Below are positions 6,513 to 61,404 of a DNA stretch of 64,000 bases, piece after piece. The stretch spans positions 56,528,881 to 56,592,880 of the forward strand of contig CM019063.1 in the NCBI GenBank assembly GCA_009667805.1, given 5' to 3'. The stretch comes from Leptobrachium leishanense. Its lineage: Eukaryota; Chordata; Amphibia; Anura; Megophryidae. The position numbers and the translations under genes are program-made. Within the stretch, counting starts at the first letter, position 1; each line of letters starts with the position of its first letter. The notes under the pieces are model-generated. The model worked only from the letters and a program-made list of their open reading frames with translations. It did not search any database and was not told where the DNA came from.

Positions 6513-6980
6513 TCACTTGCATAGTGGCCATAGGCACAGCCCTATGTGGTACAGGAGTATCCCTACCACTAGGATTAGTACCAGCATTATTATCATGGAT
6601 CCAATCTGCGAAATAAATCCCAGTATTGATCCAAACCAGTCTCTGAAAGCTCCGAACCCACGAAGAGGATTCCAGCCTTCGGCAGCAATCTGTCTAGCTG
6701 TGTTCTGCAACTGGACTACCTTCTCCTGGTGATCCTGGATTACTTGGTAGTAGTCAGGAACCTCATGTGACGTGTTTCTGATGTATGTACAACACTCATA
6801 ATGCATCGTCATTTCACACAGTCCATTTAACGCTGCACTAATCTTCTCCAGTGCCATGTCATGTATCATCTGCAACTTTCGGATCTCTCGCATCTCAAGA
6901 TTCAGCAACTGGATATCTGCACTTGTTTTATTCAAAATCTCATCCATCAAATTAGCATAACTGTTCATTCTTACCATCAA
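6513..6980 (-). pseudogene. ERV env, transmembrane subunit part
   Basis: 155-residue open stretch. Order seen: a leucine-rich helical region (about residues 10-50), a Cys cluster in which a Cys and a Cys pair are seven residues apart (C-x7-CC; the usual gamma pattern is C-x6-CC), a tryptophan-rich membrane-proximal segment (residues 100-120), a strongly hydrophobic membrane span (about 125-150) and a very short tail. It lies in a different frame from the surface-subunit stretch upstream, so the env gene is frameshifted near 6980. By analogy it is a membrane fusion subunit. As it stands it is a relic. Confidence 0.88.
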
Positions 6981-8119
6981 TTCTCTTCCCCATCCAGTCC
7001 ATGCTGGAAACCATGCCCATATTCAATCTTTCTTTGTGAACAACTCTCTCTTCTGTTTCTCAAACACCAGTGGGTACCTAGGGTGTAGTGCAGTGTCTGT
7101 GTCATCACCCCACACCCTCTGAATTGGATCAGTCCTGCTAAATAACACATCCCTGTTACTGTAGGTGGTACCCATGTGTAACACACTCTTCCACAACACA
7201 CCTGATAACCCTCAGTCAGCATGAATGGTGATAGGTGGAGTGTTCCCTTTGTCATTTCAACCGTCATTCGCCCCAATCGTTTCACAAGATCCAATGCATT
7301 CCATCTATCCACAGTCACATCTAAAATGGTCTGTTGTTGATCTCGGGTAAGACGTATTGGCCTGAGCATGAATAACCTTGGCCCTGCTCCCATCCTAACC
7401 ACATGTGCATTCCAATTAAATCTACTTGACTGACACGGATTCTCGCCTTTCACTGAACCATTTACCCCTATCTGGAAACACCATTCTGGTGGATACACTG
7501 GCCCTGTTATGGGGTAATCGGGGGTAAATGCCTCCGGTTTAACCTGAGGATCGGCAATGGTGTGTATCGTAATATTTCCAGTTGCAAATGTACTCGAGTT
7601 CATAGGAATTGCAGCAAAAGGAATATAAATTGTCTCTGGGTGCAATCTGCTGCACACCCAACACGCAGTCTGTCCAGACTTCTTTGCGTATGCATATTTA
7701 AATTTTACAAGTAGGTGTCCTCTCTGTGCAGTTTCAGACTCCACATCTTGCTTTTGTCTCCACATGGTACGGTTTTCCATCACCGGATGTGTACCATTCC
7801 AGATATGGGAGATGTCCACTTTCTCTGTTGCCTTTGGACACCTAGGACATGCCCCATGCGATAGTCCATAGATCAAGTTAGTGAGGTACAGTATTAGCAC
7901 CAAAAATGCCCCAAATGTCAAAATCCCTTGGGCAATTCTTTTCACAGTCACATAAACCCAATCCCTCCCCACCGGTATTTCAAAAGTACAAGTCATCTCT
8001 GGTTGGACAAGGGTCAGGGCAGGTCCCCTAAAAACAGCCCTTGGGGCATCCCTCTGGGGATCCCTTTGCTCCCTCGTTGGTGGGTGGTCAGGCATTATTG
8101 TGTCCTTCAAAACACCCAC
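6977..8119 (-). pseudogene. ERV env, surface subunit part
   Basis: 380-codon open stretch ending in a stop where the transmembrane part begins in another frame. A hydrophobic segment near residues 65-85 could be a late signal peptide or anchor, followed by a Cys-rich domain with several N-x-S/T sites. A CWVC motif at about residue 155 matches the position of the CxxC motif of gamma-type surface subunits. The first codon of the stretch is GTG; an ATG lies at 8093-8095. Upstream the gene runs into hAT-A at about 8145, so the env splice acceptor region and the end of pol are missing. Confidence 0.85.
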
Positions 8120-8144
8120 TTGTTGAGTCTTCTAGGTGCTCAAG

Positions 8145-10320: not shown

Positions 10321-10662
10321 TTATTTTTCGGAATATCGACCATTTTTTGTATTTTCGGGTCACTTTACTAGGTTTCTGTATCGACTTTTCGTTATTTCGG
10401 AAATTTTCGTTTTTCGGAATTGTACATGGTTTTCGGCATATCGCCCATTCTTCGTTTTTCGGAACTTTTCGTTTTTTCGGAACGTCTGTTCTTGTTTCAA
10501 AGCTGTCTAACTCTATTCGTTTTGATGAAAACTACTATGGTTTACTTTTTTAATACTACTTTATATATTTTTTATAATAAATTTTTGGTTTGTTTTTCGG
10601 ATCCGATAATTCATTCTGTCAATACGATAATACTGGCGATTCTATCGTGTTTTTTTAATTAA

Positions 10663-12649
10663 CCCTTTCGCTGCTGAGGCTTTTCCCGCCTCTGTGCTGA
10701 GCTCATTTTTACCGGTTTTGCTCATCATGTTTAAACGTGTTTTGAAGCTTATTTTAGTATATGACCAGACATATTATATATCGTTCTTTCCGTCAGACTC
10801 GGCAGATTAATAATATGTCATTATTATATGTATACGTCATGACCTGTCTGTATATTATAACAAAAAATGCAATAAAATATGATTTTTCAATAATTTACAA
10901 CGTGTAAAGTGTTTTTTTTCACATTTTAACATGCGAGCAATTGCGGTTGTATTTTGTATGGGGTGCGCTTGTTAAAAAAATTAGAGATGGGGTCTCGTTA
11001 CATTTTTTTTTGGGGAAAATTACAAAAATTTTAACAAAACGCACCGCATACAAAAATCGTTAGTGCAGCATCATTGTTCACATTATAATTGAAATGGGAA
11101 CAATATTGCTGCATTAACAAACCAAAAAAAAGAAAAAAAATTGTTTATTTTTTTTTATAATTTTTTTAAATATTTTTTTATTTTTAATTTTTTTACAAAC
11201 GTTTTTCACATTCGTGTTTGGTATCGTTGGAACGGCCATGCTCTGGCCGAACCAACAATACCAAACTTTAACCCCTAGCTGCCACGGATCGGGAGATATC
11301 TCCACCATTGGTGGCAACTAGGGGTTAACTCCAGGACTGGCGTCATCGTGCTATGCACGATGACGCCAGTCCTCAGGGGGAGTTCCCGGAAGCTTGGCTG
11401 ACATCCGACATCCTCATGGATATGCCCCAGCTCCTCATGGATATTGCCCCAGCACCTCATGGATATGCCCCAGCTCCTCGTGGACATGCCCCAGCTCCTC
11501 GTGGACATGCCCCAGCTCCTCATGGATATTGCCCCAGCACCTTGTGGATAATGCCCCAGCTCCTCGTGGATATTGCCCCAGCACCTCATGGATATGCCCC
11601 AGCTCCTCGTGGACATGCCCCAGCACCTCGTGGATATGCCCCAGCTCCTCGTGGACATGCCCCAGCTCCTCGTGGATATGCCCCAGCTCCTCGTGGATAT
11701 GCCCCAGCTCCTCGTGGATATGCCCCAGCACCTCGTGGAAATGCCCCAGCTCCTCGTGGACATGCCCCAGCTCCTCGTGGACATGCCCCAGCTCCTCGTG
11801 GATATTGCCCCACCACCTCGTTAGTGCAGCATCATTGTTCACATTATAATTGAAATGGGAACAATATTGCTGCATTAACGAACCAAAAAAAAGAAAAAAA
11901 AATGTTTATTTATTTTTATAATTTTTTTTTAAATATATTTTTATTTTTAATTTTTATTTTTTTAAAAAAAACTTTTTTCACTGTAGTGTTTGGTATCGTT
12001 GGAACTGCCATGCTCTGGCCGATCCAACCATACCAAACTTTAACCCCTAGCTGCCACGGATCGGGAGATAGGGAGTTCATTGGAACTCCCTATCTCCACC
12101 GTTGGTGGCAGTTAGGGGTTAACTCTAGGACTGGCGTCATCGTGCTATGCACGATGACGCCAGTCCTCAGGGGGAGTTCCTGGAGGCTTGGCCGACATCC
12201 AAGATGTCGGCCAGCTCCGGGAAAGGATCACGAACCGGCGCTTTTCAGCGCCGATTCGCGATCCAGCTCCCCAGGGGTTAATGCCAGGCACCATTTGGAA
12301 GGGCAGGCTGTGCCCTTCCAAATGGTGCCTGGGTTAACCCCCGCAACGCCGCCGATCGGGAGGGAGAGAGGTCCGAAGGACCTCCCCCTCCCTTTCAGGC
12401 GCCTCCTCCGCACATGCGGGGGGGGCGCCTGAATTAGGTGTCATCGCGCTGTTGCGATGACACCTAATTTCACCGGCGGCGGTTTCGGATGCTGGGCTGA
12501 CATCGAGGATGTCAGCCCGCACCGGGGGGGCAGCGATCGGCCGGAACCCGGCCGAACGCTGACCCCAAAGGGAGGACGCGCTCAGCGCGTCCTCCGCATA
12601 CCAGCAGCCATGCGGAGGACGGCTGAGCGCGTCCTCCGCATCGAAGTGG
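10663..12649 (+). mobile_element. piggyBac-like hairpin-chain element, copy D1
   Basis: Starts CCCTTTCGCTGCTGAGG and ends with the imperfect inverse TCCGCATCGAAGTGG, flanked by TTAA (10659-10662, 12650-12653). A TTAA duplication with CCCTTT-type ends is the piggyBac pattern. No transposase is present. The left half is AT-rich with long inverted repeats; the right half is a GC-rich chain of short hairpins. D1 is longer than the other copies because a segment (about 11058-11405) is repeated at 11820-12190 with a 21-bp minisatellite between the two. Confidence 0.85.
11406..11820 (+). repeat. 21-bp minisatellite inside D1
   Basis: About 20 units of GATATGCCCCAGCTCCTCGTG with variants GGACATG, GCACC and a few 22-bp units (ATATTG). 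It lies between the two copies of the duplicated D1 segment. Open frames on both strands are repeat artefacts. Confidence 0.95.
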
Positions 12650-12889
12650 TTAACAGTGTGGAAACCAAGCAATACATAATTAACTTATTAACGTAAAGCA
12701 ACGCACACAAACAGGAAAATATAGAAAAAATAGAAAATTTATTTACAACATGGGGAAGGAAGGGAACATGCCAAGGATGGCAAACTGCCCAACAGGGGCA
12801 CAAACAACACAAACAAACATACAATGGCGGCCATCTTCCAAGCCAGGCGAACATCTTGTTCAGAGCATTGGTTCACTCACTGGAGAATT

Positions 12890-16960: not shown

Positions 16961-17536
16961 CCAATTTTAAAGCACCTATTGTTACTTTCATCCAAAGCCT
17001 GCATATATTTCACAATAATTTAGCCAAAAAAATCTGTAAACTTTTTCTGCGTGTACGAAAATGTCTCCTCTTTTCATACAGACTGCCGCCCCAAGCAGTT
17101 GCTTATGGATAGATTAAAGGAAAAGCATTTACCGTCATATGAATTGTCATTTTTTAGTTTTTAAGTGTTTCTATACATCCTAGAAATCCGCCACTTCACG
17201 GGCAGGTTATGGGGACCTCCTAGGCACGATATTTGAAGGAATTTTTGGTTTTTATTTTTAACCCTTATTTCATGGAAAACTCACTGTCCCATTAAAAACC
17301 TTTTTTTTTACTTTTTGTCTTTGTTTCCTGTCCCCCAGGGCACTACCTGGACCCCCATACACCTTTTATGGCAAATATGTAGCATATATGCCCTCTTGGA
17401 GTGCACTCTAAAAACCGAATTTTCAGCCCCATTGACTTGCATTGGGTTCGAGTTCGGGTTCGGGTTCAGACCCGAACAAATGGGAAGTTCGTGTTCGGTC
17501 TCGAACCGAACTCGGGGGGTGTTCGGCTCATCCCTA

Positions 17537-18512
17537 GTCCTGGCTGAGCGCTCAACCAAAAATTGTGGGCGAGTTTTTGAAACCTTGGGGGGAGGCATTT
17601 CCAGGTCAACTGATGGCGCGCTCCCGTTGTAGATTCCTCCCACTGGAAAGCAAAAAGGGGCTGGCTTGCTGGAGCAAGGCGGATGCAAAAGAAAGCGTCT
17701 TTTAAATCAAGCACTGTGTAATATTTTGTATCACCAGGAATTAATGCCAATAAATTGTTTGGACTAGGAACCACAGGGTGTAGGGTTACTGTAGCTTCAT
17801 TAACGGCCCTTAGATCTTGGACAGGGCGGTATTCTTGTGTGCCCTCCTTCTGAACTGGCAGTAGTGGTGTGTTCCACGGTGACACGCAGAATTTCAGTAT
17901 CCCGTGATCTTTAAGTCTCTGTAAATGTGTCTGAATATTCTGTTTAGCTCTCTGTGGAATATGATACTGTCTTAGGGCCACCGGTGTTGCGCCAGACTTC
18001 AAATCAACATACACTGGAGGAATATTTACAGCTAAGCCGGGTGGGTTCTCTTCTGCCCAGACTCCAGGGACTTCCAGGAGTAGTGTGTATGGGTCCGGGG
18101 CGACCGGCAGGGTTGTTGCCGTCCACCATTCTTCTTCTCGTGGCATAATTACTGCAATTTTTACAGGTTGGGTGTCCTGGATGGCTGGGTTATATTGCCG
18201 TACAGAGCTGCCACTCTCCGGCAGGTCTAATCTAGCGTGACCCCTGGGGAGAAATGTAATTTGGGCTTGCAATTTGCAAAGGATATCCCGCCCCAGGAGT
18301 TGGATGGGACATTTAGGCATATACAGAAATTCATGTAATACATTGTGCCCACCCACATTACATTTACGTGAAGCAAGAAAGGGATACTTAGCAGATACCC
18401 CCATTGCTCCCATAATATCAACCTCATTTCCCATTGGGGGTGCAATTTGTTGTGTTACAATAGAATATTCTGCGCCAGCATCAACCATAAAAATTTCGTC
18501 TTTGTCTCCCAC
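17537..18512 (-). pseudogene. ERV protease and N-terminal reverse transcriptase
   Basis: An open stretch that begins in the retropepsin domain: FMVDAGAEYSIV around the active site, and LGRDIL near its end. The canonical active site is D-[ST]-G; here it reads DAG, which should inactivate it. RT follows, with LPVQKEGTQEYRPVQDLRAV and YYTVLDLKDAFFCIRLAP. The sequence breaks off at the hAT-A 3' end at 17536, before the RT YxDD motif. The stretch opens at a GTG codon, so the pol start is not defined; a read-through or frameshift arrangement relative to gag cannot be judged. Confidence 0.9.
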
Positions 18513-18731
18513 CCTTACTATGACCGTGGGCTCGTGATTACCGAGTGGGATGGGCCCAGGTCCGCGTCAATATATACCTTGCCCTTCAAATGACGTTCCC
18601 GCCAACCCAACAAACCCCGAACCGGCAGCATCATTTCTTTCATATCTGCCATTCGTTACCTGCCTATTTGAGGCGACATGGCCTCCCGAGGCACCAGCCT
18701 CTACCTGTACCCCATTATTACCTAATTTTTC

Positions 18732-20366
18732 AGGGCATTCGATTTTCCAGTGACCTTCACCCTGACAAAATGAGCACTAATTGGGCCCCAAGGGTTCCCT
18801 AGGGGCTCCCCTACCTCTCCCCCCTCGACCCCTTGCCCTCCCTCTATCAAAAGCGCCTCTCCCGTTTCCCATGTAGGCAACTACCCCAGTCTGCCCTCTG
18901 TCTTCGTATCTCCTCCCGCTTCTCCTCTAAATCCCAGTTATGATATACTTTATTAGCAATCTCTACTAACTCACTAATCCCTTTACCTAAAAACCCATCT
19001 AACCTCTGTATTTTATTTTGTATATCCCTTTGTGACTGGCTCACAAAGGAGGAGTTAACTAGCCACTGATTCTCTGCAGCCTCCGGTTCAATTAGACTAC
19101 ACATCCTATATGCATCTAGTAATCTTTCTAAAAATGCACTTGGATTTTCATTAATATCCTGCACAATATCCGCTATTTTACCCATATTTGTAGGCTTCTT
19201 CCCTCCCGCTTTAACCCCCATCATCACTGCTGTTTGGTATGTCTGAAGGTGAGCTATGCCTTCATTAGTATTGTATGGCCATTTGGGATCAGTTTTGGGA
19301 TAATGCTCCTCTGCCCACGCCTCTGGGTTGGGTTTGCTATCTTCAATTGCCTGAGCTAGAAGAATTTTCCGAGCACTGCTGTTTATGCGGGCTCTCTCTT
19401 CCGTTGTAAACATGGTCAGCAATAATTGCTGACAATCAGCCCAGGTCGGATTATGTGTGAACATAACTGACTCTATCATACTGGCCACTGCTGCAGGATT
19501 TGCGGAATACAGTGGTGTGTGTGTTTTCCAATTAAATAGATCCGTTGTCGTGAATGGGACATATGTGAATTGTACCGGCCCTGGCTCTCCGTTCGCCAAG
19601 GGGGGCCCTTATACCACCCTTAAGGGGAGCTGCAATTTACTCTTACCAGGGTTGTGTTGATACACATCTCGGGGGGTTTATGTATATTATTGGCGGCGCC
19701 TGTGGTAGCTCTAGGATCTACATCCCCATCCCCACTCCTTTTAGGGGTCACTCGCTGGTATACAGCCCCATCAGGCATCTCAATTTTATCTGCAGGGATC
19801 ACTTCATCCCCTCCACCCGCCGCCCCCTACTCCGCGATATCACGAGCCAGAGCCGAGGGAGCAGGCGGGATAATAGCAGCAGCCTGCTCCCCCTCTCCGC
19901 CCGCGTAACCGCGGCACCCAATGCCTCTCTCGATGCCCCGTAGCAAGACGGGTAAGGCGGCGAAAGGGAATCGATCTCCTCTGGGTGTCCTACCAACACC
20001 GGTTTTCCTTTTGTATCATTGGCAGGGGGTCCCTGTTTCTTATTCTGACCTGCCATCATAATAAAATGACTAATGTCCCTAACACAATACCTCCATATAT
20101 CTATATATGGGTACTGATCAGGGTGACCACATCTCCCAGTAATTTGAGAGTGCATTCTGTATTAACTCCGGGTCCATAGACCCCTGTTCCGGCCATTCGG
20201 GGACCAACATTGGCCAAACTATTGTACATAACAGTTTTAATTTTTCTTTACTTAATTCCACACCATAGTGATGTGTCTCATACAGCGCCTCAAAATTGTG
20301 CACCATATATTCCAGGGGTGTCTCCCCATCTCTTGCTTTCTTGGGTTTAGATGACCCGTTACCCAT
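18732..20366 (-). pseudogene. ERV gag (matrix, linker, capsid, nucleocapsid), broken
   Basis: The likely start is the ATG at 20366-20364, beginning MGNGSSK, a good N-myristoylation context. Matrix spans about 20366-20118. A proline-rich linker with SLSPPYP (about 19900-20010) and the region 19620-19802 lie in other frames. Capsid (19599-18847) begins near VQFTYVPFTTTDLFNWKTH and includes the major-homology-like NENPSAFLERLLDAYRM. A single zinc knuckle CSFCQGEGHWKIEC (C-x2-C-x4-H-x4-C) is at about 18776-18732, with a stop just upstream in its frame. Several frameshifts and stops. Capsid type and single knuckle indicate a gammaretrovirus-like gag. Confidence 0.9.
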
Positions 20367-22341: not shown

Positions 22342-22785
22342 TAGGGATGTGCATGGCTGAAAAATTTGTTTCATTTAGTTTAGTTTTTAAATAAAAAAAA
22401 ATTGGAATTTCGTAACTAATTTCGTTTCGTATTTCATTTCGGATCGATTCGAAATTTCGAATCGATTCGAATTTCATATATCAATTCGATAGTTGATATC
22501 AATTCGAATTTTGGATCACTAAATAAAACCCCAATTAAACAAATTTTGCTGTCAATAGACAATCTAGTGTTAAATATTAAGCTGTCGCACATTTAGTATT
22601 TGAGTCAAATTAAACAGTTAAACATAATTTGTTTCATAAAGTCCTTTGCTGACTATTACTTGTATTTTAAGATCAATTCGATAGTTGATATCAATTCGAA
22701 TTTCGGATCACTAAATAGAACCAATTAATCAAATTTTGCTGTTAAAAGACACGCTAGGGTTAAATTAAGCTGTCTCACAGACATA
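22342..22785 (+). mobile_element. hAT-B-like end fragment
   Basis: Starts TAGGGATGTGCATGGCTG and continues with TTCGTTTCGTATTTCATTTC and two copies of ATCAATTCGATAGTTGATATC (about 22478 and 22674). This matches the hAT-B terminus and its AT/TTCG-rich style. No right terminus is visible before the next MITE at 22786. Confidence 0.6.
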
Positions 22786-23627
22786 CAGGGTTATTCAAAG
22801 AGATTCGAAAAGTCACCGCACGTTCGGTGACTTTTCGTTCTCTTCAATTCGGTTCCTTTTGCCGATCCCATTTCGGTGACCCTGCGGTGTATTCAGCAAA
22901 CACCACAGGGTCCCCGAATTGCAGGGAAAAGCTGCCGCAAATCCGACGAAAACTCACAGCAAAACCCAGCGAATGCACACTGAAAACCCTCAAAAACATC
23001 TGGATTAACCTGCCGAAAACCACGGAAAAAGCCCGAGCAGGAGCCGATCACACACAGCCGAAGCAGCTGAGATCGCAGACGAGGCAGTGAATAAATTAGC
23101 AAAATAGTTTGTGTGAATGTGTGAAAATGAAACGCTGTTTGCAAAGAAACTACTGAGCGAAAATGTCTGAAATTTACACAGGAGGTCCAGGGAATGATAA
23201 TAAAAAGGGCTGTTACAGAACAAATAAGTAAACTTAAAAAAAAAAAAAATATTGGACTTTTAAAAAAAAAATTCAGAAAAATGCTTAAAATATCCTAAAA
23301 AATCTATAAATAAAGAGACTCTTTACTGCAGAATTTTATAATGAACGGTTTATTAGATATTGAATTAAAACGGGAATATTTTTAACATTGAAGCCTATGG
23401 GATTCTCCTGAATTAACTTGCCGAATTAAACCACCGAATGGCAGGGCATTTCGGGAACCTTTCACTGCTGGTTTGTGTTCTCTGAATAGCCGAAGCAGTG
23501 CATTTTCATGGGGATTTCACTGCCCTCGAACAGGCACCGTATGTGCAGGCAATTCGCCAGGATTTGGCGAATTGCCTGCTCTCTGGATAGCCGAATGGCC
23601 AGGAATGGTAACCGAACGCTGATTTTC
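22786..23627 (+). mobile_element. MITE family B, copy 1, right end missing
   Basis: Starts CAGGGTTATTCAAAGAGATT with a hairpin built on GTCACCGCACGTTCGGTGAC. It contains the family's conserved core AAAGAGACTCTTTACTGCAG at about 23310 and CGGTTTATTAGATATTGAAT. It follows copy B2 (48734-50137) until GAACGCTGATTTT, where the terminal hairpin is lost. Non-coding. Confidence 0.8.
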
Positions 23628-25359: not shown

Positions 25360-26552
25360 CAGGGGCAGATCCAGACACAGTTTTCAGGGGGGGGGCATTC
25401 TACCAGTTTTGGCCAAGAGCTGATGTTGGGTTCACAGTGAAAGGTGGATATATTTGCCCCAGCTCACATGGATATATATATATTGCCCCAGCTCACATGG
25501 ATATATTGCCCCCCAGCTCACATGGATATATTGCCCCAGCTCACATGGATATATATTGCCCCAGCTCACATGGATATATTGCCGACCAGCTCACATGGGT
25601 ATATTTGCCCCAGCTCACATGGATATATTTCCCCCAGCTCACATGGATATTATTTATTGCCCCAGCTCACATGGATATATATATTGCCCCAGCTCACATG
25701 GATATATTGCCCCCTCTCACACATGGACATATTGCTCCAGCTCACACATGGATATATTGCCCCCAGCTCACACATGGGTATATTTACCACCAGATCACAT
25801 GGATATATTGCCCCCAGCTCACATGGGTATATTGCCCCATCTCACACATGGGTATATTGCCCCCCCAGCTCATGGATATATTGTCCTCAGCTCACATGGA
25901 TATATTTGCCACAGCTGACATGGATATATTGGCCCAAGCTCACATGGCTATATGTGCCCCAGCTCACACATGGATATATTGCCTCAGCTCACATGGGTAT
26001 ATTGCCCCCAGCTCACATGGATATATTTGCCCCAGCTCACACATGGATATATTGCCCCAGCTCACATGGATATATATTGCCCCCAGCTCACACATGGATA
26101 TATTGCCCCAGCTCACATGGATATATTTGCCCCAGCTCACACATGGATATATCGCCCCAGCTCACACATGGGTATATTGCCCTCAGCTCACATGGATATA
26201 TTGCCCCAGCTCACATGGGTATATTGCATCCAGCTCACATGGGTATATTGCCCCCAGCTCTCACCTGATCCTCTGCTGCCAGGCCCCAGGCTCCGCCGGC
26301 ATTCTTCTTCTCCGTACAAGGCGAGCGGCCGCTGGCATGATGCAGCTTGGCCGCTTGCCGGGTGGGAACCACCTGACCAGCGCAGCCGCATCTTGTGATA
26401 TCACGCTCTGGTCAGGTGGTTCACATCCCATGCGAGCGGCTAAGCTGCATGTCAGCTGCCGCTCGCCTCGCAGGGAGGAGAAGAACGCCAGCGGCGGTGA
26501 TTTTCTCAGGGGGGGGCAATTGCTCCATTGCCCCCCCCTGGATCCGACCCTG
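25360..26552 (+). mobile_element. Non-autonomous hAT (hAT-C) with minisatellite core
   Basis: 1193 bp with ends CAGGGGCAGATCCAG and CTGGATCCGACCCTG, and a perfect 8-bp duplication ACGAGAGC (25352-25359, 26553-26560). Inside are a G-run, a 23-bp minisatellite (25444-26262) and an inverted repeat (about 26290-26500; GAGCGGCCGCTGGCATGATG against its near-inverse). A 619-codon open frame across the region is an artefact of the repeat. No transposase. Confidence 0.92.
25444..26262 (+). repeat. 23-bp minisatellite
   Basis: About 34 units of GATATATTGCCCCAGCTCAC plus ATG, with 25-bp variants (CACACATG) and CCCCC variants. Length variation per unit is mostly 2 bp (CA or AT steps), which shifts frame from unit to unit. 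Confidence 0.95.
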
Positions 26553-27490: not shown

Positions 27491-28282
27491 AGGGGTTATT
27501 CAGACAGAGCCGATTGGCCCCGAAATGTCACCGAACAATGAATATCCACGTACGATGACATTTCGGGGCCATTCGGCTATTCAGAGAGCAGGCAGCTTGC
27601 CATATTTTGGCGAAGGCAGTGAAATTCACTACAGAGAATCAATGGTTAATCTATTCAGAGAACACCGAACAGCAGTGAAAAGTTGTCGAAGTGCCCTGAT
27701 GTTCGGTGGTTTCATTCGGCAGATTTATTCATGCAAACCCCTTAGGTTTTAATGGTAAAAATATTGCCGTTTTTATCCAATATCTAATAATCCGTTTATT
27801 ATTTTAATCTGCAGTAAAAAGTCTCTTTGATTTTTTTAGGATCTTTTAGGCATCTTTTCAGCAAAATTTTTTAATTTTTTATTTTAAAGTGTTGTTTTTC
27901 TATTTTCTGTAACAGACCTTTTCATTAGCATTCATAGGACCTTATATGTAAATTACAGGCATTTTCGTTCAGTCGTTTTTTTTTTTTGAAAACAGCATTT
28001 CAATTCTAACTTTTTCAATCATATTGTTTTTTTTTTTACCCTGTTCGTCAGCTTGTCTGCTTTTTCCGGCAGCAGGTCTGTGCTGTGATCGGTGGCTCGT
28101 CGGCTTTTTCCGTCATGTTCAGCGTGTTTTATGCGGGTTTCCGGTGGGTTTTCCCTGCACTCCGGGGACCCTGTGGTGAATGCTTAATTCTCCGCAGGGT
28201 GGGGAACTTTGATTCCCCAAAGTGCAGGGAACGAGAGAGCACCAAAATGTTGCCGACATTTCTGCGCTCTTTGAATAACCCC
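27491..28282 (-). mobile_element. MITE family B, copy 3 (inverse orientation)
   Basis: GGGGTTATTCAGACAGAG at the left and CTCTTTGAATAACCCC at the right. It contains the reverse complement of the family core (CTGCAGTAAAAAGTCTCTTT at about 27812). No target duplication is clear. Non-coding. Confidence 0.75.
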
Positions 28283-45325: not shown

Positions 45326-45641
45326 CATGTTTTGCGAAGGGGTCAAATACTTATTTCACTCATTAAAATGCAAAATAATTTATATCTTTTTTGAAATACG
45401 TTTTTCTGGATGTTTTTGTTTTTATTCTGTCTTTCACTGTTAGAATAAACCTACCATTAAAATTATAAACTGATCACTTTTTTGTCAGTGGGCAAACGTA
45501 CAAAATCAGCAGGGGATCTCCATTTTTTTCCCCTCACTGTAATTGTATTCTCCTCTTTACCTTTAGTCTTCTGGTTTGTAAAAGCAGGGGGTGAGTGTGT
45601 AATGCGTTGAGTACAAAAAAATGAGAATTGGAAATTATTAA

Positions 45642-46877
45642 CCACTTCGATGCGGAGGACGCGCTCAGCGCGTCCTCCGCATGGCTCCTGCTGTGCTGAG
45701 GACGCGCTGAGCGCGTCCTCCCTTTGGGGTCAGCGTTCGGCCGGGTTCGGCCGATCGCTGGCCCCCCGGTGCGGGCTGACATCCTCGATGTCAGCCCAGC
45801 ATCCGGAACCGCCGCCGGTGAAATTAGGTGTCATCGCGGCAGCGCGATGACACCTAATTCAGGCGCCCCCCGCATGTGCGGAGGAGGCGCCTGAAAGTGA
45901 GGGGGGAGGTCCTTCGGACCTCTCTCCCTCCCGATCGGCGGCATTGCGGGGGTTAACCCAGGCACCATTTGGAAGGGCACAGCCTGCCCTTCCAAATGGT
46001 ACCTGGCATTAACCCCTGGGGAGCTGGATCACGAATCGGCACCGCTGAAAAGCGCCGGTTCGTGAACCTTTCCCGGAGCTGGCCGACATCTTGGATGTCG
46101 GCCAAGCCTCCGGGAACTCCCCTGAGGACTGGCGTCATCGTGCATAGCACGATGACGCCAGTCCTAGAGTTAACCCCTAACTGCCACCCACGGTGGAGAT
46201 AGGGAGTTCCAATGAACTCGCTATCTCCCGATCCGTGGCAGCTAGGGGTTAACGTTTGGTATTGTTGGATCGGCCAGAGCATTGCCATTCCAATGATACC
46301 AAACTCGAAAGTGAAAAAAGTTTGTAAAAATAAATAAATAAATAAAATAAAAATAAAAAAATATTTTAAAAAAAATTATAAAGAAAAAAATAAACACTTT
46401 TTTTTTCTTTTTTTTGGTTTGTTAATGCAGCAATATTGTTCCCATTTCAATTATAATGTGAACAATGATGCTGCACTAACGATTTTTGTATGCGGTGCGT
46501 TTGTTAAAAATCGTGTAATTTTCCCAAAAAAAAATGTAACGAGACCCCATCTCTAATTTTTTTAACAAGCGCACCCCATACAAAATATAACCGCAATTGC
46601 TCGCATGTTAAAATGTGGAAAAAAAACACTTTACACGCTGTAAATTATTGAAAATTCATATTTTATTGCATTTTTTGTTATAATATACAGACAGGTCATG
46701 ACGTATACATATAATAATGACATATTATGAATCTACCGAGTCTGACGGAAAGAACGATATATAATATGTCTGGGTCATATACTAAAATAAGCCTTCAAAA
46801 CACGTTTAAACATGATGAGCAAAACCGGTAAAAATGACCTCAGCACAGAGGCGGGAAAAGCCTCAGCAGCGAAAGGG
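45642..46877 (-). mobile_element. piggyBac-like hairpin-chain element, copy D2
   Basis: 1236 bp flanked by TTAA (45638-45641, 46878-46881). Reverse orientation relative to D1: starts CCACTTCGATGCGGAGG and ends CCTCAGCAGCGAAAGGG. The GC-rich half (45642-46260) is a series of back-to-back hairpins with stems of 9-20 bp. The AT-rich half (46290-46860) has longer inverted repeats (for example TTTTTGTATGCGGTGCGTTT against ACAAGCGCACCCCATACAAA). No protein. Confidence 0.88.
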
Positions 46878-46881
46878 TTAA

Positions 46882-48104
46882 CCACTTTGATGCTGAGGAC
46901 GCGCTGAGGACGCGCATTCCCGCTGGTATGCGGAGGACGCGCTGAGCGCGTCTTCCCATTGGGGTCAGCGTTCGGCCGGGTTCCGGCCGATCGCTGGCCC
47001 CCCCGGTGCGGGCTGACATCCTCGATGTCAGCCCGGCATCCGGGACCACAGCCGCCGGAATTAGGTGTCATCGCGGCAGCGCGATGACACCTAATTCAGG
47101 CGCCCCCCTGCATGTGCAGAGGAGGCGCCTGAAAGGGAGGGGGGGGAGGTCCTTCGGACCTCTCTCCCTCCCGATCGGCGGCTCTGCGGGGGTTAACCCA
47201 GGCATCATTTGGAAGGGCACAGCCTGCCCTTCCAAATGATGCCTGGCATTAACCCCTGGGGAGCTGGATCGCGAATCGGCGCTGAAAAGCGCCAATTCGC
47301 GATCCTTTCCCGGAGCTGGTCGACATCCTGGATGTCGGCCAAGCCTCCGGGAACTCCCCCTGAGGACTGGCGTCATCGTGCGTAGCACGATGACTCCAGT
47401 CCTGGACTTAACCCTTAACTGCCACCAACGGTGGAGATAGGGAGTTCCAATGAACTCCCTATCTCCCGATCCGTGGCAGCTAGGGGTTAAATTTTGGTAT
47501 GGTTGGATCGGCCAGAGCATGGCCGTTCCAACGATACCAAACATGAAAGTGAAAAATGTTGTAAAAAAAATGAAAAAAAAAATAAAAAAAAAATAAAAAA
47601 AAATTATAAAAAAAAAATAAACACTTTTTTTAATTTTTTTTGGTTTGTTAATGCAGCAATATTGTTCCCATTTCAATTATAATGTGAACAATGATGCTGC
47701 ACTAACGATTTTTGTATGCGGTGCGTTTGTTAAAAATAGTGTAATTTTCCCCAAAAAAAAATGTAACGAGACCCCATCTCTAATTTTTTTAACAAGCGCA
47801 CCCCATACAAAATATAACCGCAATTCCTCGCATGTTAAAATGTGAAAAAAAAACACTTTACACGTTGTAAATTATTGAAAATACATATTTTATTGCATTT
47901 TTTGTTATAATATACAGACATGACATAACGTATACATATAATAATGACATATTATGAATCTACCGAGTCTGACGGAAAGAACGATATATAATATGTCTGG
48001 GTCATATACTAAAATAAGCCTTCAAAACACGTTTAAACATGATGAGCAAAACCGGTAAAAATGACCTCAGCACAGGGGCGGGAAAAGCCTCAGCAGCGAA
48101 AGGG
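46882..48104 (-). mobile_element. piggyBac-like hairpin-chain element, copy D3
   Basis: 1223 bp, same orientation as D2 and directly following it. The TTAA at 46878-46881 is shared and the other TTAA is at 48105-48108. Hairpin order is the same as in D2. It has arm changes that keep pairing (GGCATCATTTGG with CCAAATGATGCC). Confidence 0.88.
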
Positions 48105-48108
48105 TTAA

Positions 48109-48733
48109 TGTTCAAATCATCATTGAAGACCTGGATTATATCAGTAAACACATGAATCAACTAAAAAAAAAGAATAGCAAGACAATTATCCTATTCAAGA
48201 CTTTTTCGTTAGTAGAATTAACCTGGTGGTAGAATCCTCCATTAGGACGAGGGTACTTAAGGTCCTTATAGCTATTACATTGCAATATCTAGCTTTTGTC
48301 TGTGTGACTAAGCATCTTAATGCGGGCGTAATATACTTGTTCTTCACGCTTGCTGAAATGCCAGACGTTTTCATGCCAGTCAGCACAGGCTGCATTTAGC
48401 GCAATGGTATGGTATTTATTTACCATGTGTGCGGTGTTTGTTTACGGCCGACAGTCTGCTGAGCCGCTGGATTCTGCTGTCATTAGTCTGGGTTTATTAG
48501 GGTTTTCTTTCTCTCCCATCTAATTTATTTTAAACCAATGTAACTTCCAATACTATATACTTTAGACTAATATATATTTTATAATGGGTTAAAGATGTTC
48601 TTTTTTGTTTAACTCAGGAATCCCTGCTCTCAAAACTCATTTGTCTTGGTTTTCTCCTCTGAATGCAGATCCTTTTGTGCAAATGCTTCTTCCGAGGGCT
48701 TTCAAATAACGTGATACTTTAATGTATCTCTTA
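48109..48733. other. unassigned sequence
   Basis: About 620 bp, AT-rich, no gene or element recognised. It ends with TTA, the target of MITE B2. Confidence 0.4.
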
Positions 48734-50137
48734 CAGGGTTATTCAAAGAGAATCGAAAAGTCCCCGCACGTTCGGTGACTTTTCGTTCTCTTCAATTCGG
48801 TTCGATTTGGCGATCCCATTTCGGCGACCCTGAGGTGTATTCAGCAAGCACCACAGGGTCCCCGAATTGCAGGGAAAGGTCGCCGCAAACCCGCCAAAAA
48901 CTCACCGCAAAACGAGGGCGAACGCACACCGAAACCCGCTAAATCATCTGGATTAATCCACCGAAAATGCCGGAAAAATCCGAGCAGGAGTCGATCACAC
49001 ACAGCAAAGCCGCCGGAAAATGCCGACACTGCAGACGACTGCAGTGCATAAATTAGAAAAACAGTTTGCTTGAATGTTTGAAAAGTGAAACGCTGTTTGC
49101 AAACAAACTACTGAGCAAAAATGTCTGAAATTTACATATGATCCAATGACTGATAATAAAAAGGACTGTTACAGAAAATATAAGTAAACTTACAAAAAAA
49201 AATCAGAAATTAGTTTTTAAAGAAAATCCCCAAAAATGCTTAAAATAGCCTTATCCTTACCTACAAAACCCTCACTAACTCAGCTCCCCACTACCTGTCC
49301 TCACTAATCACCAAATACACCCCAGCCCACTCCCTAAGGTCAAACAGTGACCTGCGCCTAGCTTCTCCCCGCATCACCTCTTCCCATGATAGACTGCAGG
49401 ATTTCTCACGCGCAGCCCCCACTCTCTGGAACGCTCTCCCTCGTACTGTCAGACTTTCCCCTAACTTCTCTTCCTTCAAACGCTCCCTGAAAACATTCCT
49501 ATTTAGGGAAGCCTACCACCCAACTCACTGACGCAACCATCAATCACTCTCACCTTACAGTCCTCTCCTCCTGTTTCCAACCCCAATCCTCCCAGATTGT
49601 GAGTTCCTACGGGAATAGGGCCCTCATCTCCTCCTGTACTGTTTGTCACATGTTGTTCAATGTATTGTAACCCTGTCTATACTGTGCCTATTGTACAGCG
49701 CTGCGGAATATGCTGGCGCTTTATAAATAAAGAATAATAATAAAATAATAATAGCCTAAAAAATCTATAAATAAAGAGACTCTTTACTGCAGAATATTAT
49801 AATCAACGGTTTATTAGATATTGAATTAAAACGGGAATATTTTTACATCGAAGCCTATGGGATTTGCCTGAATAAACCTGCCGAATTAAACCACCGAATG
49901 GCAGGACATTTCAGGAACCTTTTACGGCTGGTTTTTGTTCTCTTAATAGCTGAAGCATTGCTTCTCTATGGGGATTTCACTACCCTCGAACAGGCACCGT
50001 ATGTGCAGGCAATTCGCCAAGATTTGGCGAATTGCCTGCTCTCTGGATAGTCAAATGGCCAAGAAAGGTAACCGAACGCTGATTTTCAGCGTTCGGTTCC
50101 CTTTCGGCAGCCATTCGGATCTCTTTGAATTACCCTA
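48734..50137 (+). mobile_element. MITE family B, copy 2 (complete, with LINE insert)
   Basis: CAGGGTTATTCAAAGAGAAT at the left and CTCTTTGAATTACCCTA at the right with TTA on both sides (48731-48733, 50138-50140). Subterminal hairpins (GTTCGGTGACTTTTCG near the left, GAACGCTGATTTTCAGCGTTC near the right). Net length without the LINE insert is about 900 bp. The 3-bp TTA duplication suggests a Harbinger-type mobiliser. Confidence 0.85.
49252..49749 (+). mobile_element. Rex1/L2-like LINE 3' fragment in MITE B2
   Basis: Flanked by AATAGCCT (49244-49251, 49750-49757). It encodes the end of an RT protein: YTPAHSLRSNSDLRLASPRI and APTLWNALPRTVR, stop near 49530. A 3' UTR ending GCGCTTTATAAATAAAG and an (AAT)n tail follow. 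Severely 5'-truncated; non-functional. Confidence 0.9.
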
Positions 50138-55868: not shown

Positions 55869-56056
55869 AATGTGTACGTGGAAAGATTATCAACTCTAAA
55901 TGACCTCTGTTCACAAACGGGCATAACACCAGGTGTTTTTAGTCTGGTAATCAATTTGATACATTGTACAATATAGTGAGGGGGTGGGGTGGTGTCTGCT
56001 TCTGATTGAGATTTGAGAATTAATTTCTCTAAAACATCCTAATATGCTGCATTTAA

Positions 56057-57183
56057 CCTTTTTGCTGCTGAGGCTTTTCACACCTCTGTGCTGAGGTCAT
56101 TTTTACCGCTTTCACTCATCATGTTTAACCGCGTTTTGTAGCCATATTTTGATATATGACCCAGACATATTATATATCGTTCTTTCCGGCAGACTTGGCA
56201 GATTCATAATATGTCATTATTATATGTATACGTTATGTCATGTCTGTATATTATAACAAAAAAATGCAATAAAATTAGAATTTTCAATAATTTATTATGT
56301 GTAAAGTGTTTTTTTTCACATTTTAACCTGCGATCGTTTGCGGCTATATCTTGTATAGGGTGCGCTTGTTAAAAAAATTAGAAATGGGGTCTCGTTACAT
56401 TTTTTTTTGGGGAAAAATTAGCTTTTTTTAACAAACGCACCGCATACAAAAATCGTTAGTGCAGCATTACTGTTCACATTATAATTGAAATGGGAACAAT
56501 ATTGCTGCATTAACAAAACAAAAACAAACAAAAAAACTTGTTTATAAATATATATATATATTTTTTTTTTTTAAATTTCATGCTCATGTTTAGTATCTTT
56601 GGAAAGGCCATGCTCTGGCCGATCCAACAATATCAAACATTAACCCCTAGCTGCCACGGATCGGGAGATAGGGGGTTCATTGGAACCCCCTATCTCCACC
56701 GTTGGTGGCAGCTAGGGGTTAACTCCAGGACTGGCGTCATCGTGCTATGCATGATGACGTCAGTCCTCAGGGGGAGTTCGTGGACGCTTGGCCGACATCC
56801 AAGATGTCGGCCAGCTCCAGGAGAGGATCACGATCCGGCGCTTTTCAGCGCCGATTCGTGATCCGGCTCCCCAGGGGTTAATCACAGCCACCGTTTGGAA
56901 GGGCAGGCTGTGCCCTTCCAAACGGTGCATGGATTAACCCTCTGCCCCCCGGCGATCGGGAGGGAGAGAGGTCCGAAGGACCTCCCCCCTCCCTTTCAGG
57001 CGCTTCCTTCGCACATGCGGGGGGGGGCGCCTGAATTAGATGCCGCCGCGATGACATCTAATTGCTTCGCCGGGGTCCCGGAGTGCTGGGCTGACATCCA
57101 AGATGTTAGCCCGCACTGGGGGGCGCAGCAATCCGCCGGAATCCACAGCACAGGAGAACCACTTGGCTGGACGCGCCAAGTGG
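56057..57183 (+). mobile_element. piggyBac-like hairpin-chain element, copy D4
   Basis: 1127 bp flanked by TTAA (56053-56056, 57184-57187), same orientation as D1: CCTTTTTGCTGCTGAGG at the left, CTGGACGCGCCAAGTGG at the right. It has the same hairpin order but is the most diverged copy. Several arm changes are paired: GGGGGTTC/GAACCCCC, ACCGTTT/AAACGGT, ATTAGATG/CATCTAAT. Confidence 0.87.
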
Positions 57184-57244
57184 TTAACTGGTGTTTGAAA
57201 AAATGTAAAGCAATGTTATTTTTCACCTAGGGATTAAACATTCA

Positions 57245-60979: not shown

Positions 60980-61404
60980 TGCTAGGGTCAGACTAACGCA
61001 TTTTCACGTTGTCTGTGAAAAAGTGCGTTCGAACGAATGGACGCATTTTTTCACGGAGTACGTGATAGCGGTCATACTATGCGCATTTGCGTTCGTGATT
61101 TTGTACGGATCATCAATAAAACACTTTGTGCATCTGGACGTTATGTTGGCCGGACATTAGCAGTGTCTGACGTCTCCAATTCACGCACACACGCCTCTAG
61201 CGGACGCAGCGCACTCTGTACGTCAGTACTAGCGGTTTTACGTTCTCGACAAAATGCGTTCGTTTGCCACTTGCGTTGCGCAGCCGGACTTTTGTGCGAC
61301 CGTACTTCGTATATTGGCCGTCATTGCCCGGCATTTGCTGCTACTACGGCCGTGATTAAGTGCGCCTGCACGCCCGTTCGCACTGCCTCAGTCTGACCCT
61401 AGCC
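60980..61404 (+). mobile_element. Harbinger-like MITE, family A, copy 5
   Basis: GCTAGGGTCAGACTAACGC to GTCTGACCCTAGCC followed by TAA (61405-61407). The left duplication is decayed (AAAGGGT). Same orientation as copy 4; non-coding. Confidence 0.85.

Follow-up and report, generated by a model that had tools for sequence, protein, structure and literature searches.

The 64-kb window, the whole stretch of DNA analysed here, carries a family of TTAA-bordered elements in which one half of the sequence is a chain of more than a dozen adjacent hairpins. The chain holds an old, collinear, head-to-tail duplication of a multi-hairpin module, hairpins have been gained and lost among the copies, and some stems have changed on both arms with Watson-Crick pairing kept. 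On balance we favour the reading that this is a non-autonomous TTAA element of piggyBac-like type, in which hairpins arise, multiply and re-match at the level of DNA, probably via template switching.

BLAST within the window identified five copies or pieces at three loci, listed here with the minisatellite that interrupts one locus:

45642–46877, plus strand: copy A, complete element of 1,236 bp, TTAA at 45638–45641 and 46878–46881
46882–48104, plus strand: copy B, complete, 92.7% identical to A (BLAST), right TTAA at 48105–48108
11818–12649, minus strand: copy piece C1, left end to H14 hairpin, 94.0% identical to A (BLAST), TTAA at 12650–12653
10663–11410, minus strand: copy piece C2, starting within H10 and extending as far as the right end, 90.8% identical to A (BLAST), TTAA at 10659–10662
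11411–11821, no strand assigned: 21-bp minisatellite between C1 and C2 (repeat scan)
56057–57183, minus strand: copy E, more diverged, 1,127 bp, with a replaced 5′ end, TTAA at 56053–56056 and 57184–57187

Copy E is 84.5% identical to A over E's BLAST match. The sequence-only reading had counted four copies; the family stands, but its first copy (“D1”, 11820–12649) and the next piece (10663–11410) belong to one locus, and the copy at 56057–57183 had been missed. Copies A and B meet head to tail at a single TTAA (46878–46881) common to both, yet differ by 7.3%, so the pair is not a recent tandem duplication. At the C locus, C1 and C2 have the same orientation and are joined across the 21-bp minisatellite, the facing ends of a full pair being absent. 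In columns 465–680, C1 and C2 show 12 differences across 194 sites, a level similar to that between other copies there (A and C1 12 of 215, B and C2 13 of 194), and the C locus was therefore probably also a head-to-tail pair originally, to judge from these alignments. Two of the three loci (45638–48108 and 10659–12653) hold two copies in the same orientation.

The same earlier reading had named one recent segmental duplication among the cases that would undo it. This origin is ruled out by the flanks, which are unrelated: the six 300-nt flanks have no 14-mer in common in any of 15 comparisons, so the copies are not products of one segmental duplication, and the GC-rich part differs between copies by 3.7–13.5% (columns 105–680). 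When the joined flanks were compared locus against locus, the sole match was a 60-nt stretch of the A/B left flank that is 75% identical to part of copy E; used as queries within the window, the joined flanks found no empty TTAA site.

The complete copies (A, B and E) are 1.1–1.2 kb long, non-coding and bounded by imperfect TIRs, and several similar copies occur within 64 kb, all as in a MITE, although 1.2 kb is long for one. Each of A, B, E and the C locus is flanked on either side by TTAA. The element ends adjoining it resemble CCACTTCGATG and CCCTTTCGCTG. When the two 17-bp ends are compared, 13 of 17 sites agree in A, B and C, and 8 of 17 in E. Excerpts from two accounts of the piggyBac superfamily describe TIRs of 12–19 bp beginning with CCYT (PMC2872659; PMC5601938). 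The right tips, CCCT (CCTT in E), are consistent with this rule; the left tip is CCAC, not CCYT. PiggyBac-type mobilisation, proposed from the ends and target alone, is made plausible by the TTAA borders, the right tips and the end match in A, B and C; the left tip and the ends of E speak against it, and Pfam, run on 10 of the window's 88 listed open stretches, detected no piggyBac- or Kolobok-type transposase. A Kolobok/T2-MITE assignment is ruled out by the tips: T2 elements share the TTAA target but have AGGRR after TTAA, according to the part of PMC6004289 on which we draw, and the element here has CCAC and CCCT/CCTT. It plausibly works like a piggyBac-type MITE, and we treat this assignment as provisional.

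An inverted-repeat scan and a DNA fold confirmed the claim that the GC-rich half of the TTAA-flanked element is a chain of hairpins. Twelve inverted-repeat pairs of 13–32 nt were found in 45600–46900; these include pairs that lie in the AT half, as well as one short, overlapping palindrome. Folded as single-stranded DNA, the GC half (45638–46330) reached −287.5 kcal/mol against a shuffle mean of −127.0 (sd 4.4), a z of −36.4, and none of 20 dinucleotide shuffles was as stable. The long inverted repeats reported for the AT half are also present, as inverted-repeat pairs and as a structure looser than that of the GC half (fold z −7.9, 100 shuffles). A stem scan of the whole window listed 55 stems of 35% GC or higher; 35 of these fall in the copies, which make up about 9% of the window. 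We divided the GC half of copy A (45650–46304) into 13 hairpin units, H1–H13, given here with the remainder of the element:

45650–45682, plus strand: H1 (inverted-repeat scan)
45694–45721, plus strand: H2 (inverted-repeat scan)
45726–45765, plus strand: H3 (stem scan)
45768–45805, plus strand: H4, in module 1
45822–45859, plus strand: H5, in module 1
45858–45895, plus strand: H6, in module 1
45903–45934, plus strand: H7, in module 1
45948–46016, plus strand: H8, in module 1, the module alignment stopping within it
46026–46068, plus strand: H9 (stem scan)
46074–46116, plus strand: H10, in module 2
46125–46165, plus strand: H11, in module 2
46169–46253, plus strand: H12, in module 2
46254–46304, plus strand: H13, in module 2, the module alignment stopping within it
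46305–46877, plus strand: AT-rich half and right end, with two longer hairpins at about 46420–46484 and 46484–46585

The chain contains an old collinear duplication, made evident by local alignment of two of its segments:

45765–45995, plus strand: module 1, H4–H8
46072–46293, plus strand: module 2, H10–H13

H4, H5, H7 and H8 match H10, H11, H12 and H13, respectively, in the same order. Comparison of the six hairpins H3–H8 with the five hairpins H9–H13, against shuffles that keep each hairpin palindromic, gave only these four of 30 comparisons above a z of 2: H4–H10 at 14.9, H5–H11 at 6.1, H8–H13 at 4.5 and H7–H12 at 3.1, the last (21 of 2,000 controls as good) being weak alone for 30 comparisons. 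Among the 120 orders of the second-half hairpins, the sum was attained by the real order only. Aligned locally, the two modules scored 87, compared with a mean of 21.9 and a maximum of 44 in 1,000 controls, and the part of the alignment beyond H5/H11 scored 40, compared with a control maximum of 33 (1,000 controls). In module 1, 76 base pairs have both sides aligned to module 2, where 34 of them recur unchanged, four have changed on both sides and are paired, none has changed on one side and is paired, and 38 are unpaired. H3, H6 and H9 gave no partner signal in the opposite module. H1 and H2 are near-identical hairpins, and in an all-against-all comparison on copy A (78 pairs, both strands) each resembled part of H6 (H1–H6 z 4.7, H2–H6 z 3.2), a resemblance that falls outside the module order.

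The conserved hairpin order that had been noted across the copies holds for A, B and C1, and for E from H4 on, but hairpins also come and go, and the internal duplication had gone unmentioned. Each unit folds in each of A, B and C1, with the exception of H1 in B, which does not form. C2 begins inside H10, and its H12 folds despite a 22-nt deletion in the middle. Copy E keeps H4–H13 with H5 shortened; its 5′ end is different, the left arm of H3 is absent as aligned, and a hairpin found in no other copy occupies its tip:

57157–57185, minus strand: tip hairpin of copy E only, an 11-bp perfect stem from E's own left end

The tip reads AACCACTTGGC, followed after seven bases by the exact reverse complement of AACCACTTGGC, a partner absent from the first 120 bases of A, B and C. 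The 5′ end of E thus offers an example of how a hairpin can be born. Separately, H4 of E (about 57085–57115, minus strand) carries the loop region of H10 (CATCTTGGATG), unlike H4 of the other copies, which reflects either the ancestral state or exchange between paralogous hairpins.

Comparison of each copy with the majority sequence revealed changes at 10 stem sites in A, 24 in B, seven in C1, three in C2 and 36 in E. Double changes at paired sites of the GC half number three in B, where random placement predicts 0.53 (p 0.013), and six in E, where it predicts 1.39 (p 0.0006); there are none in A, C1 or C2. All nine keep Watson-Crick pairing. As a control, the partner position was slid by one to three positions either way; these six registers gave two to five doubles each, 21 in total, of which eight were paired. 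When the fold of copy A alone was used, B had five doubles (four paired) and E six (six paired), with none in C1 or C2; for B, one slid register likewise gave five doubles, one of them paired. The AT half has four double changes, two of them paired. The 20 stem changes of A, C1 and C2 together include no paired double, and such one-sided changes are as expected of neutral decay after insertion; we infer that the paired changes arose in source lineages and not in the resident copies.

Compensated changes are usually taken as a sign of RNA selection. If the chain were transcribed and acted as a structured RNA or a small-RNA precursor, RNA selection in the source copies would keep the stems paired, as the paired changes do, and in the GC half stems do have a lower rate of change than unpaired sites (80 of 2,202 versus 40 of 455, Fisher p 9e-6), a difference partly biased by deriving the structure from the majority sequence. 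The one-sided stem changes argue the other way. They comprise 13 G-U, 19 A-C and 27 others, and since a G-U on one strand is an A-C on the other, the lack of any G-U excess on either strand (13 versus 19, p 0.38) means that neither strand is preferred. RNA selection expressed as a G-U bias is hence unsupported, and the absent strand preference speaks against selection on RNA, small as the numbers are. The DNA fold energies of the two strands are similar, and their folds contain 34 and 46 G-U pairs in total. Rfam gave no match to a known structured RNA family at gathering score in the 64-kb window. We regard the RNA explanation as improbable. An exact search with the H11 palindrome in viral contigs returned no match.

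The hairpins might instead matter as double-stranded palindromes, an array of binding sites at which a dimeric transposase or host protein keeps the half-sites alike. Such a role is conceivable because piggyBac and piggyBat transposases bind subterminal palindromes via two cysteine-rich domains, as stated in the part of PMC11707139 available to us; however, the palindrome sequences here are many and different, stems of 11–30 bp would exceed the length that a site requires, and the chain is confined to one half of the element, beyond the left tip, so that this account seems unlikely. We give similarly little credence to a chain that grew as small hairpin elements with TTAA borders inserted one inside another. 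The GC half of A has four internal TTAA, every one of them in the stem of H8 or H12, and H12 itself is TTAACCCC...GGGGTTAA, but a TTAA border is lacking in 11 of the 13 units, and the order of several hairpins is explained by the collinear module duplication.

In the reading that we favour, hairpin turnover at the DNA level, the non-coding element would move by cut-and-paste with a piggyBac-type enzyme, a multi-hairpin module has been duplicated head to tail, single hairpins would have been duplicated as well (H1/H2), and new hairpins would be made by fold-back copying, as at the tip of E. The arms of a hairpin would be kept alike in transposing source copies, most likely by template switching in replication, with one arm templating the other. 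Excerpts from PMC8794818 and PMC8604942 report that a single template-switching event can create a long stem and that the process homogenises arms; PMC8794818, in the portion considered here, grades its own evidence for stem maintenance as circumstantial. No loop inversion was recognised by eye. A bolder form of this reading takes the DNA hairpin as the unit of evolution, born by template switching, copied as multi-hairpin modules and staying paired through sequence drift because the folded single strand aids replication or spread; we consider this possible but rather doubtful.

TTAA MITEs, their head-to-tail arrays and template-switch hairpins are each already known. The piggyBac-like CMITEs of corals resemble the element in their TTAA target, CC[C/T]T tips (here at the right end only), non-coding sequence, conserved interior and head-to-tail arrays; those arrays have near-identical members and are ascribed to replication slippage, whereas A and B differ by the amount given above, and the excerpted text mentions no hairpin chain (PMC2872659). 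The Xenopus T2-MITE Xmix amplifies an internal segment as a repeat array, somewhat like the minisatellite in the C locus (PMC6004289, in part). Template-switch hairpins share long paired stems, compensated changes and hairpin creation with the element, but are known from rRNA genes and yeast coding DNA in the parts of PMC8794818 and PMC8604942 drawn on here, whereas the present mobile element has a module duplication and more than 12 hairpins side by side. Clusters of palindromic MITE-like repeats in Anopheles likewise consist of non-coding, TIR-bearing repeats, of which some are palindromic; the extract of PMC3212995 used describes palindromic repeats and no multi-hairpin chain. Among the matches listed, which comprised titles and the starts of abstracts, none was recognised as describing a TTAA element with multiple hairpins, repeat libraries and most subscription journals lying outside this scope. 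What appears new, on that basis, is the combination of these features in a chain of a dozen-plus hairpins with an internal module duplication.

The element in which these compensated changes were observed is mobile and non-coding, and neither strand shows any sign of being favoured. Palindromes are common within the TTAA repeats of ranid and bufonid frogs, so kin of the element may already be in Repbase. If the family is numerous, it would allow one to test, in a natural setting, whether DNA replication by itself can create, copy and re-match hairpins, and the internal duplication would supply relative dates. Palindromes are held to be fragile, and a numerous family would also raise the question of why a largely palindromic element spreads at all.

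The window contains further repeats and the remains of retroelements. The minisatellite of the C locus (11411–11821, 21-bp unit) is related to another at 25445–26260 (24-bp unit), which lies away from any element copy found; none of 2,000 shuffles was as similar. Derivation of the minisatellite from H10 was rejected: the similarity, which 135 of 2,000 shuffles equalled or bettered, is not significant. Among the 10 open stretches scanned with Pfam, three have reverse-transcriptase domains, one of these also having a retroviral protease, and single stretches matched a hAT dimerisation domain, a BED finger and Gag_p30, with no match in the other four. The likely source is an animal, probably a vertebrate, and the style of the repeats would, as a guess, suit an amphibian. 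Retrovirus-like remains lie on the minus strand at 6513–8131, 17466–18566 and 18847–19608, with Gag_p30 at 18850–19608 and the protease and reverse transcriptase at 17469–18566 (Pfam); the stretch at 6513–8131 looks envelope-like by eye, its scanned part (6980–8131) having no Pfam match. Another family of repeats, also with a number of strong stems, occurs at 22784–23627 and 48732–50087, which are 83% and 92% alike, and also at 27540–28005. Finally, about 1 kb at 60981–62008 matches itself in inverted orientation with 81% identity and is possibly a foldback element; pieces related to it lie near 1560, 9890 and 57506.
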